From a virus, in IMG/VR virus record IMGVR_UViG_3300022562_000766, positions 1-23,700 of that record: 23,700 nt of DNA; one strand, given 5' to 3'. Made by a program: the position numbers and the translations under genes. The notes under the pieces are model-generated. The model saw nothing but the letters and a program-made list of their open reading frames with translations, was not told the origin of the DNA and searched no databases. This document shows, piece after piece, positions 12,384-15,853 of this stretch (the first letter of the stretch is position 1; each line of letters begins with the position of its first letter).

Positions 12384-13709
12384 ATGCCAGAAGCAGTAGC
12401 AGCACCAGCACCAGCATCAACACCCGCACCGGATCCATCACCGATCGACAATCCTGAATTGGGAGGAGAACGGGATGGAGGTGGGACAGTTGATTTCGAT
12501 TCGGATATTGATCGTGAGCTTTCCGAAATGGACGATGACGCACCTCCGCCGAAGAAAGAGGTGAAGAAAGAAGTCACTCCCCCGGCGAAGCCCAAGAAAC
12601 CAGCCGCCGCCAAGAAGCCGGAAAAGAAACCGGAAGGCGAAGAGGAGGAGGAGATGCCCCCGGGCGATGAGGGCAAGCCGAAGGACAAGCCTGAGACTCC
12701 CCCGGTCAAGGCGGCGGATTTGCGGACCGCTTACGAGGGGCTCAAGAAAAAGGTGACGGAGCAATATGAGCCGGAACTTTCCAAGCTGAAGGCGAAGCTC
12801 CAAAAGCTGGAATCCCAGAAGCCGGAAGCCGATGCCGCCATCACCGAAGAACTCACCAACATCAAGAAGGAGCGCGATGCTCTTGCGGAGAGGATCCGCT
12901 TCATCGACTACCAAGCTCATCCTGAGTTCAAGGAGAAGTACGAGAAGCCTTATCAGGATGCTTGGAAGCGTGCCATATCGGATCTCAGTGAGATCTCAAT
13001 CCGGGATCCGGAGACTGGAACTGAGCGCACGGCAACCGCACAGGACTTGATGGAGATCTGCAACATGCCGCTTGGCGAAGCTCGCAGGGCGGCAAGAGAG
13101 CTTTTCGGTGATGCCGCCGATGACATCATGACGCATCGGAGGGTAATCCGTGAATTGTCAGAAGCTCAAAACAAAGCCCTTGAAGATGCGAAAACCAATA
13201 GTGGTGAACACCAGAAAAAACTGGCAGCACAACGCCAGATCGAACACCAAGAAACACTCAAACTCTGGAAGTCTGCGAACGAAAGCCTTGCGCAAAAATA
13301 CCCCAAATGGTTCGCACCAGATGAATCAGACCCCGAAGGCAACACCCTTCTCGAAAGTGGTTTCGCACTTGCGGACCTTCATTTCATTGGTCCGAAGGAT
13401 TTGACGCCGGAGCAAATTGAAATGCTCCCGCCAATGTTTAGAGATCCCCTAAAATCAGAGGGAACCTTAAAGGGTCCGGCGAGGGTAGCTCTTGACGCAT
13501 TGATCCGGAACAAGGTTGCCAGCCATGGCCGGATCATTCGGAAGCTGAAGCTCGCTAACACGCGCATCAAAGAGCTTGAGGAATCTCTTGCTCAGTACGA
13601 AAAGTCAGAGCCCCCCGCCGGACGGGGCGGAGAGGGATCCTCACGCACAGGAGCCGGGGACACCATGGCGGAAGCCGAAGCTGAGTTGGATGCCTTGGAT
13701 ACCGTATGA
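12384..13709 (+). CDS. Scaffold-like head assembly protein, 441 aa
   Basis: ATG 12384 is supported by GGAG at 12373-12376, 7 nt upstream. Residues 1-40 are Ala/Pro-rich, followed by an acidic stretch, then a Lys/Pro/Glu-rich linker to about residue 110. A coiled-coil-like segment follows (EQYEPELSKLKAKLQKLESQ), then helical charged sequence to about residue 300 and a final coil near 395-425 (LKLANTRIKELEESLAQYEK). No enzymatic motif or membrane segment is visible. Extreme charge, helical content and the place just before the capsid gene are what capsid scaffolds look like, although scaffolds are poorly conserved. It overlaps the GroES gene by ATGA. Confidence 0.68.
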   Translation: MPEAVAAPAPASTPAPDPSPIDNPELGGERDGGGTVDFDSDIDRELSEMDDDAPPPKKEVKKEVTPPAKPKKPAAAKKPEKKPEGEEEEEMPPGDEGKPKDKPETPPVKAADLRTAYEGLKKKVTEQYEPELSKLKAKLQKLESQKPEADAAITEELTNIKKERDALAERIRFIDYQAHPEFKEKYEKPYQDAWKRAISDLSEISIRDPETGTERTATAQDLMEICNMPLGEARRAARELFGDAADDIMTHRRVIRELSEAQNKALEDAKTNSGEHQKKLAAQRQIEHQETLKLWKSANESLAQKYPKWFAPDESDPEGNTLLESGFALADLHFIGPKDLTPEQIEMLPPMFRDPLKSEGTLKGPARVALDALIRNKVASHGRIIRKLKLANTRIKELEESLAQYEKSEPPAGRGGEGSSRTGAGDTMAEAEAELDALDTV

Positions 13710-14011
13710 GGATCAAGCCACTTACGGGACAGGTTCTAGTTTCTCTGATCCCCGGGCCAGAGATCTTGAACGGGATTCACCTCCCGGACAAACGCAACCC
13801 GGAGGAGCCTGTCTTTGCTCGCAAGGCGATTGTGCGGGAGATAGGGCCATGGCCGAAAACCAAGAACGGCATGGGAGTGATCCCTCCCTTTGGCAGAGGG
13901 GCGACCGTTCTAGTGAACGAGTACAAAGGCCAGAAACTTACAAACTTCAGTGAACAGTTGCGGCTGATTTCTACGGATGATATAGTCGCCCTGCTGTCTA
14001 ACGACTGCTGA
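13706..14011 (+). CDS. groES: GroES-like (Cpn10) co-chaperonin
   Basis: This 101-aa protein follows the Cpn10 pattern end to end: RIKPLTGQVLVS at the N-terminus (compare IRPLHDRVIVK in E. coli GroES), a short mobile-loop region containing NGIHLPD in place of GGIVL, AIVREIGPWP, PPFGRGATVLVNEY for the core strand and turn, and RLISTDDIVALL for the conserved C-terminus. Length matches GroES (97 aa in E. coli). It would cap the host GroEL ring. T4 Gp31 is a precedent: it replaces GroES for capsid-protein folding. Position between scaffold and capsid candidate fits that job. Its start overlaps the scaffold stop (ATGA) and its stop lies just before a strong terminator. Confidence 0.88.
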   Translation: MRIKPLTGQVLVSLIPGPEILNGIHLPDKRNPEEPVFARKAIVREIGPWPKTKNGMGVIPPFGRGATVLVNEYKGQKLTNFSEQLRLISTDDIVALLSNDC

Positions 14012-14035
14012 GTTCATAATACAGTTGTCAGCCAA

Positions 14036-14071
14036 ACCGGAGCTAAGTGCCTTGGCTCCGGTCTTTTTTTT
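14036..14071 (+). terminator. Rho-independent terminator after the GroES gene
   Basis: A 12-bp stem (14036-14047 with 14051-14062, one G-U pair, triloop TGC) is followed by C and a run of eight T at 14064-14071. This is a textbook intrinsic terminator. It would end, or attenuate, the terL-to-groES transcript just before the leader of the capsid gene. Confidence 0.9.
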
Positions 14072-14073
14072 CT

Positions 14074-14302
14074 CTTGCGCGATTCACGGATGTGGACTAA
14101 CAAGGCAAAAGTGATGTCGTAAACGCGACAACGTTCGGGTGCGAATCCTGAAAGCCCGGGTGAACAGCGGGTAGCCTGTTCAGCTTAGAGCCTCGCAAGC
14201 TTCATCGCAGTTGAAAGACTGTGGACATCCTAGAGAACGTCCATGGTCTACCTGTGTACCCCTCTGGCCGTTTTCAAAAAAACCGTTAACTCAATTTTTG
14301 TT
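14074..14302 (+). ncRNA. Candidate structured 5' leader of the major capsid gene
   Basis: This is 229 nt with no supported gene. CTTGCG (14074-14079) can pair with CGCAAG (14194-14199), closing a domain that holds several local hairpins: TCAC/GTGA (14084-14087 with 14111-14114), TGTCG/CGACA (14115-14119 with 14126-14130), TTCGGG/CCTGAA (14134-14139 with 14147-14152, one G-U) around the 7-nt loop TGCGAAT, which fits the tRNA T-loop pattern, and the perfect TGAACAG/CTGTTCA (14161-14167 with 14176-14182). CCCG at 14155-14158 could pair with the CGGG at 14168-14171 in the last loop as a pseudoknot. A second domain follows: AGAC/GTCT and TGGAC/GTCCA (14216-14249). The remaining 50 nt to the ATG are A/T-rich. 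No known riboswitch, intron or tRNA was recognised. Structure is by hand only. Confidence 0.5.
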
Positions 14303-15853
14303 ATGGCTATTGCCTGTAAATCATTCACCGACTTTCTCAGTCGTCGCAGTGAGCATCTGGACGACATGATCATCAAAGCCCTCCATCCCATCGACACATG
14401 GATTGGGCACGTTTCAACCGGACGCTTCAAGGCGCAAGACGGTGTTGAACACACCTTCGATCGTTTTGAGAACGTGTTCCCGGATCTCCGGGGCACTTGG
14501 GAGGATGTCACTGGCACCTCCTGTGTTGGGCTCCCTTGTGATCCTTCCGAAACCAAAATCGGAATGGGCTTCACCCGGGATTCCTACAAGCTCCAGAGGA
14601 AATCCTACACTACGGATCTTTTCTGTTTCGATCAGATCCTCAGTGCGGACCGTGCGAAGCAACAGTTCGCGCACATCATCCGCGTATTGCGGAGAGCATC
14701 CAGCCTTATCACCAGCCATCGTTTCCGCACGGAAGCGTTGCGCATCGCCAAGCGGAAATGGATCACGGCGAACAACACCCTCGTTCCCATCACGGCAACG
14801 TGGAATGCCGCCATGACCCAGCTTACCGTGAGCGGTTTGCCCACCAGCAAGATCAGCGCACGGCATCTGCAACGCCGGGTGGAGCCCCAGATCCGCGAAG
14901 GCGCATTGGGCGAGGACATCAACCGGGGAGCCCAGCCCATGTTGGAATTCGTTACCAACATGGAAGAAGTCTGGAACATGGTTGAAGGCAATTCGGAGCT
15001 TGTTGACCACTGGCGTTTCCAGCAATGGGAAGATGCCAGCAAGTACCATCGCTACGGATGGGTCGGCAAGTTGGGCAACTACGGCTTGAGAGCCGATTGG
15101 AGCCCTCTCCGATTCAACATCAACAGCGGTCCCGATGCAAACGGGGCATACGTGCTGGATCTGGTTCACCCTTATACCAACGTTGCCACCACCGAAGGCA
15201 TCAAGGAAGAGGTGAACTCAGACTTCGACAACGCCCCGGTCCAGTTGAATTTCATCTGGCACCGCAAGGCGATGACGTCTCTGGTTCGGGACACGACCGC
15301 CATCAACCCGGAAATGCCATTCGCCATGCGAGACTTCGCCGGGAAGTGGCAGTTCGTCATGGACAACCTCACTTGCGGCAACGATGTCAACGGCAACCCC
15401 ATCGCCGTGGACAACGCTCGCCGGAACAAGGGCAAGTTCATTGCGGACTTCAGCTTCGCCACCAAGGCGGAGTATCCGGAGCTTGCGGAAGCGTTCCTGA
15501 GCTTGCGGGAGCCTGCTTGCGTGTTGGACATCCCAACGTGCGCAACCACGCCTTACCCGTACCCGCAGAACTACTCCAGCGAGAATGATCCCTGCCCGGA
15601 TGATCATTCTGTTCTCACCTTCACGCCGATGCTGAAGGATGAAACCGCAACCTATGAGGTTGACGCCAGTTCCATCAAGTGTAACGGCATGACCATCGTT
15701 CATGACGCTATCACCGGAAGTGCAACGGTGGCTGATCTCGTTGCGGAAATGAACACCAAGCTCGCCGCACTTGGCACTTGGGCCGTTAACGGCGGGAACA
15801 TCACGCTTACCACAGACGTTTGCACGGATGTTTCCATCCCGTGGACGGTTTAA
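14303..15853 (+). CDS. Major capsid protein candidate, 516 aa
   Basis: ATG 14303 (MAIACKSFTDFLSRRSEHLD) is chosen over in-frame ATG 14243 because the latter lies inside a leader hairpin and would add 20 residues with no capsid character. The leader is A/T-rich and lacks a Shine-Dalgarno. The call rests on position after scaffold and GroES, on size, on a mixed helix/beta body without catalytic motifs, and on placement at the head of its own transcript after a terminator. The last 90 residues, after FLSLREPACVLDIPTC, look like a separate small beta domain (VADLVAEMNTKLAALGTW, VNGGNITLTTDV) that could decorate the capsid surface. HK97-fold membership is assumed, not shown. Confidence 0.72.
   Translation: MAIACKSFTDFLSRRSEHLDDMIIKALHPIDTWIGHVSTGRFKAQDGVEHTFDRFENVFPDLRGTWEDVTGTSCVGLPCDPSETKIGMGFTRDSYKLQRKSYTTDLFCFDQILSADRAKQQFAHIIRVLRRASSLITSHRFRTEALRIAKRKWITANNTLVPITATWNAAMTQLTVSGLPTSKISARHLQRRVEPQIREGALGEDINRGAQPMLEFVTNMEEVWNMVEGNSELVDHWRFQQWEDASKYHRYGWVGKLGNYGLRADWSPLRFNINSGPDANGAYVLDLVHPYTNVATTEGIKEEVNSDFDNAPVQLNFIWHRKAMTSLVRDTTAINPEMPFAMRDFAGKWQFVMDNLTCGNDVNGNPIAVDNARRNKGKFIADFSFATKAEYPELAEAFLSLREPACVLDIPTCATTPYPYPQNYSSENDPCPDDHSVLTFTPMLKDETATYEVDASSIKCNGMTIVHDAITGSATVADLVAEMNTKLAALGTWAVNGGNITLTTDVCTDVSIPWTV

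Follow-up and report, generated by a model that had tools for sequence, protein, structure and literature searches.

A fast-evolving structured leader ahead of a phage major capsid protein gene, with a probable role in cis

A tailed phage typically makes more of its capsid protein than of any other product, and to our knowledge control of its synthesis by mRNA structure has been little described. A 23.7 kb fragment of DNA from an uncultured phage (IMGVR_UViG_3300022562_000766, positions 1-23,700; this whole stretch is called the window below) carries, ahead of a capsid gene, a region in which a preliminary description had seen a closed multi-helix RNA of no known class. It had offered three roles for this RNA, i.e. 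a cis-regulator of capsid synthesis, a stabilizing 5′ structure, or a small RNA made by processing. Which of these, if any, does the region serve?

For the protein whose gene starts at 14303, neither Pfam nor PHROG gives a match. By Foldseek its AlphaFold model (pLDDT 74.7) resembles the capsid of phage N4 (E 2.8e-10) and many further HK97-fold capsids, and on the strength of these matches the product is identified as an N4-like major capsid protein (MCP) with the HK97 fold. In three relatives (L031, L036 and L074) the conserved capsid sequence seems to be preceded by a fused N-terminal stretch of hydrophobic character. Two proteins encoded upstream are without family match and were judged by position and size; that of 802 aa is taken for the portal and that of 441 aa is probably the scaffold. 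A gene for a GroES-like co-chaperonin (Cpn10, E 1e-6) lies at 13706-14011, directly 5′ of the capsid transcription unit. Placed between the terminator of the upstream unit and the MCP start, the region 14074-14302 holds, by sequence comparison, a non-coding 5′ leader of the MCP mRNA (Table 1). A coding reading was rejected, as most relatives have an in-frame stop within about 10 codons before the MCP ATG (in L002 it is one codon before), and a longer in-frame start at 14243 is not common to the relatives.

Table 1. Coordinates of the features in and around the capsid leader of the window
Feature	Position	Strand	Basis or remark
Intrinsic terminator ending the upstream unit (genes from portal-like to GroES-like)	14036-14069	+	12-pair stem followed by T-run; strong
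Probable MCP promoter: TTGCGC (14075-14080), 17 nt, TAACAA (14098-14103)	14075-14103	+	Weak match, assigned by position
Putative 5′ H-type pseudoknot: TGTCG/CGACA (14115-14119 with 14126-14130) and AACG (14122-14125) with CGTT (14132-14135)	14115-14135	+	Homology to L016, L002, L022 and L006, letters changed
T-loop-like hairpin TTCGGG-TGCGAAT-CCTGAA (14134-14139 with 14147-14152, one G-U; loop 14140-14146)	14134-14152	+	Sequence
Possible second pseudoknot: loop TGCGA (14140-14144) with TCGCA (14193-14197)	14140-14197	+	Inferred from group B and L003
Perfect 7-bp hairpin TGAACAG/CTGTTCA (14161-14167 with 14176-14182)	14161-14182	+	Sequence
AGCTTCATC, equivalent of the CUUC arm, whose partner in many relatives is the start region	14198-14206	+	Partnerless in the window
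Hairpin H1, CAGT-TGAAAG-ACTG	14208-14221	+	100% of cells paired; two pairs changed on both sides
Hairpin H2 (14216-14226 with 14239-14249; 11 pairs, two G-U)	14216-14249	+	90% of cells paired, group A
Helix H3, GAACG (14235-14239) with CGTT(TT)C (14269-14275), enclosing the UGU hairpin	14235-14275	+	95% paired, nearly invariant
UGU-loop hairpin TAC-CUGU-GUA, loop 51 nt before AUG	14249-14258	+	Family test; stem of 3 pairs in the window is below the cut-off used
A/U-rich start region, no Shine-Dalgarno sequence	14276-14302	+	Unpaired in the window
MCP gene, predicted HK97 fold, nearest to the phage N4 capsid	14303-15853	+	AlphaFold model and Foldseek

Searching viral contigs with MCP queries in five scans brought out about 95 distinct phages with MCP identities of about 34-86%; the INPHARED phage collection gave no match. 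One cellular match was to a metagenome-assembled genome of Pedosphaera (Verrucomicrobiota; L173), which hints at the host. The DNA 5′ of the MCP start was extracted and reduced to 66 non-redundant leaders (<30% shared 8-mers). In this phage and dozens of relatives the folded leader is 110-250 bases in length, and across the family the leaders have almost no sequence in common. A single MAFFT/RNAalifold alignment of group A (the group of the window, with only seven or eight members) did not work, and since the leaders are too diverged for one alignment we used motif tests against shuffled sequences together with alignments of sub-groups. The tests were devised after inspection of the same leaders, and the relatives are non-independent draws.

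All the helices of the preliminary description were found where it had placed them, and on the window alone they are no more than chance would give. For the 177-nt segment 14074-14250 the minimum free energy is -54.5 kcal/mol, where shuffled versions average -52.25 (z -0.53); the full gap between the genes, 14012-14302, has z -1.09. Across the family the mean z is -1.64 for the leaders and -1.15 for DNA upstream of the promoter, a modest difference. It is comparison between relatives that reveals a structured leader beyond chance. Substitutions in the paired columns are not random for several of the helices, though not for all those originally named.

One common element is the promoter. TTGACA is present in the expected zone in 47 of the 66 leaders (shuffle mean 2.9, maximum 6), with a TA-like -10 box 16-19 nt beyond it, so that in this family the MCP leader is preceded by a predicted promoter of the sigma-70 type. 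In the window the boxes begin a few bases past the terminator; they are weak, and a consensus promoter scan of the window did not detect them. The RNA would most likely start near 14109-14111. This bears on the helix that had been thought to close the whole structure (CTTGCG, 14074-14079, with CGCAAG, 14194-14199). Both strands are present in the sequence, but 14075-14080 is the site of the -35 box in the relatives, so the closing helix would pair DNA that is not transcribed. Its 5′ strand is probably absent from the transcript, and a closed multi-branch architecture is not supported.

By eye, many leaders open with a stem whose loop can pair with the bases directly 3′ of that stem, i.e. an H-type pseudoknot. 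Requiring a gap of no more than 2 nt between stem and loop partner, such that the helices could stack coaxially, we found a significant knot in 15 of 59 leaders scored (p<=0.05 for each; Fisher 1.2e-6). Control segments at offsets of 66 and 100 and upstream were not enriched (0.99, 0.95 and 0.55 respectively), while an overlapping segment at offset 40 was (1e-4). In the group of the window and its neighbors the pairing is kept as the letters change, being GCGG/CCGC in L002, AGCGG/CCGTT in L016, GCAG/CTGC in L006, CCCAC/GTGGG in L021, TTGCG/CGCAA in L007 and AACG/CGTT in the window. Taken alone, the knot at 14115-14135 of the window is not significant, and the best-scoring knot there is another (p 0.14); assignment of the 5′ knot in the window is made by homology to L016.

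The next hairpin had been likened to the T-loop of tRNA. The fit of its TGCGAAT loop is loose, and the counterparts of this hairpin in L003 and in group B (L005, L007, L009 and L015) have different loops. In these relatives the loop can pair downstream. Within group B the pairing changes on both sides, from GCGGCT/AGCCGC in L015 to GCCTCT/AGGGGC in L009, and in L003 it is GAAGCG/CGCTTC. It is therefore more likely, judging from these homologs, that the loop bases in the window would make an equivalent downstream pairing than a T-loop. An exact-DNA search with the hairpin returned four tRNA clusters, and was set aside as chance identity with a phage tRNA T-arm; the exact hairpin TTCGGGTGCGAATCCTGAA serves as T-arm in a tRNA-like gene within the tRNA clusters of unrelated phages (L079-L082). 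The loop CGGGTAGC of the perfect 7-bp hairpin could pair with CCCG at 14155-14158.

The 3′ domain provides covariation. H1 occurs in the sub-group of the window as CAGT/ACTG, CGGT/ACCG and CGGC/GCCG, and it also pairs in L014 (TGGC/GCCG) and L006 (GGGT/ACCC). H3 is invariant, and so contributes no covariation in sub-group A1. H2 is the hairpin previously described as separate; it is present and well paired in group A, but it is not separate, since it overlaps both H1 and H3, and H2 and H1/H3 would thus be alternative folds. A covariance model of this domain (R1) matched relatives that it had not seen (L014, E 4e-15; L006, E 1e-8) and gave a partial match in L003, in each case directly 5′ of the MCP gene. 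Over 20 whole records it matched at the MCP leader only, in five records.

Closer to the start codon a UGU-loop hairpin, mostly 45-60 nt 5′ of the AUG, was found in 31 of the 66 leaders (9.3 in shuffles, maximum 13), and the 5-mer CUUCA in 30 (7.6 in shuffles). The CUUC-A-rich arm can pair with the A/U-rich bases before the AUG; a compact-helix score gave a mean z of 1.31 and a combined z of 10.6, with 25/66 leaders at <=5%. An earlier test using RNAduplex was weak (mean z -0.58) because it allowed large internal loops, and the compact-helix score was used in its place. The helix is formed from unrelated letters in different phages, as in L006 (CTTCATCG/CGATGAAG), L017 (TCACAACTG/CAGTTGTGA), L211 (TTCAAAACTGT/ACAGTTTTGAA) and L203 (CATAAAATCGT/ACGATTTTATG), where it takes in the start codon. 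In many relatives a covarying helix would therefore hide the start region, while none was found in the window by the compact-helix test. A Shine-Dalgarno-like 4-mer precedes the AUG in only two leaders; the other 64 have none.

We note two further features of the start regions. In L039, L045, L051, L054 and L078 an AAGCC/GGCTT hairpin overlaps an arm GGCTTCAAAA for which TTTTGAAGC, ahead of the AUG, is a possible partner; only one of these pairings can form at a time and both are kept, which is switch-like. Some leaders that lack the start helix (among L004, L009, L021, L024, L025, L059, L061 and L226) have instead purine runs resembling AGAGAAAGA or AAAGAA ahead of the AUG, and look like a second class of start region.

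What, then, is the leader for? Its knots and hairpins form anew as the sequence rapidly diverges, so it probably controls capsid output or the lifetime of the mRNA. Promoter, leader and MCP gene form one unit, with no terminator before the AUG in 64/66 leaders, and a cis-acting leader is thus the simplest reading. We consider it reasonably probable that this is a fast-evolving 5′ leader with its own promoter, exerting cis control on translation of the capsid mRNA, on its stability, or on both. The region is non-coding, structured and immediately 5′ of the gene, and of the roles originally offered a cis-regulator and/or stabilizing 5′ structure is the most likely. Transcription would start at the private sigma-70-type promoter that lies just past the terminator of the preceding unit, and a coaxial H-type pseudoknot would form close to the 5′ end of the emerging RNA. 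Downstream of it would come more hairpins and pseudoknots, and then the UGU-loop hairpin about 50 nt before an A/U-rich start that lacks a Shine-Dalgarno sequence. The 5′ knot may guard the mRNA from 5′-end-dependent decay, or nucleate protein binding, or both, and the 3′ half of the leader may open and close the start region, in many relatives by means of the covarying helix. The mutually exclusive H1/H3 and H2 folds could instead do the switching in the window and in some of its closest relatives. Within the family the window is among the weaker cases, having a weak promoter, no start helix, ordinary stability and a knot that is not significant alone.

More speculatively, the leader might be a switch under feedback control. 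One of the assembly proteins, be it capsid, scaffold or chaperonin, would bind the UGU hairpin and the 5′ pseudoknot and flip the RNA between start-open and start-closed folds, matching capsid synthesis to assembly, with the letters of the RNA almost freely replaced between relatives. We regard this specific scheme as decidedly unlikely.

Other explanations must be weighed against cis control. A structured RNA that opens a late transcript, shortly after its promoter, might modify RNA polymerase such that it reads through the structural operon, in the manner of the put RNA of HK022, which modifies the polymerase to antiterminate. The most conserved elements are positioned relative to the MCP AUG and not to the 5′ end, and we think RNA-encoded antitermination very unlikely. 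The leader might instead be purely protective, its knot and hairpins serving only to stabilize a very abundant capsid mRNA whose translation is unregulated. The location of the pseudoknot at the predicted 5′ end would suit this, as would the lack of a start-region helix in the window and the unusual stability of the T4 gene 32 mRNA, which bears a 5′ pseudoknot (PMC3014915). Such a role leaves unexplained the nearly fixed distance of the UGU hairpin from the AUG and the covarying start-region helix of the relatives, and on balance we find it rather unlikely.

That this compact folded region is processed into a separate small RNA is highly improbable, given that there is no terminator between leader and AUG either in the window or in all but two of the 66 relatives, and that the covariance model matches at the MCP leader only. 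The same shortage of terminators led us to reject a transcription attenuator; U-runs do precede the AUG, but without GC-rich terminator stems. We give equally little credence to an ordinary spacer with chance helices. The fold of the window is unexceptional and the tests were made after inspection, as such a spacer would allow, but control segments from the same phages were not enriched, the covariance model found unseen relatives, and paired columns have changed on both sides.

A phage lineage whose capsid leaders are pseudoknotted would offer natural variants by the dozen with which to test control of late gene output by RNA folding. It also illustrates that searches based on sequence conservation can miss RNAs that keep their architecture while the letters change.

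Several known systems bear comparison. In RNA phages of the MS2 type the capsid protein acts as a translational repressor through an operator hairpin. Those operators share with the present leaders a hairpin, conserved in its loop, that lies at the start site or 5′ of it, and capsid protein could be the ligand here too; however, this is a dsDNA phage, the hairpin is about 50 nt upstream of the AUG, and capsid-RNA binding is conjectural. The GOLLD and ROOL RNAs, which occur in phage and metagenome DNA, are likewise structured, but they are large (several hundred nt) and have Rfam models. By analogy, the closest described case for the layout appears to be the autogenous operator of gene 32 in T4, T2 and RB69, where a phage mRNA likewise has in its leader an H-type pseudoknot, with coaxial stacking, 5′ of an A/U-rich start region. 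In the capsid leaders such a knot is found at the level of the family, and in the window by homology only. In T4, where the ribosome-binding region is A/U-rich, the distance from the pseudoknot to the start codon is 67 nt (PMC3014915), whereas the 5′ knot of the capsid leader lies about 170 nt before the AUG. Gene 32 encodes an ssDNA-binding protein, where the gene downstream here encodes MCP, and the capsid leaders have in addition the UGU hairpin and the start-region helix. A 2010 review of T4 considered the gene 32 pseudoknot to be perhaps the sole viral pseudoknot in translational autoregulation (PMC3014915). The rpsO leader of E. coli likewise uses an operator pseudoknot for translation of an abundant protein (PMC3014915), but there the gene is for a ribosomal protein, and the knot of the capsid leader does not overlap the start site.

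The earlier exclusion of known RNA classes stands. ARAGORN finds no tRNA in the window, and an acceptor stem and cloverleaf are absent. Searching Rfam 15 gave no family at the gathering threshold in the window and 18 relatives, and a permissive search of the window gave chance matches only. The leaders have no conserved ligand-binding core and match no Rfam riboswitch, and the group I intron model RF00028 is not matched in the window. In one relative, L011, a group I intron match of 48.3 bits (E 3e-11, just under the Rfam gathering score) is present at 2668-2953, inside the MCP gene just before about codon 17.
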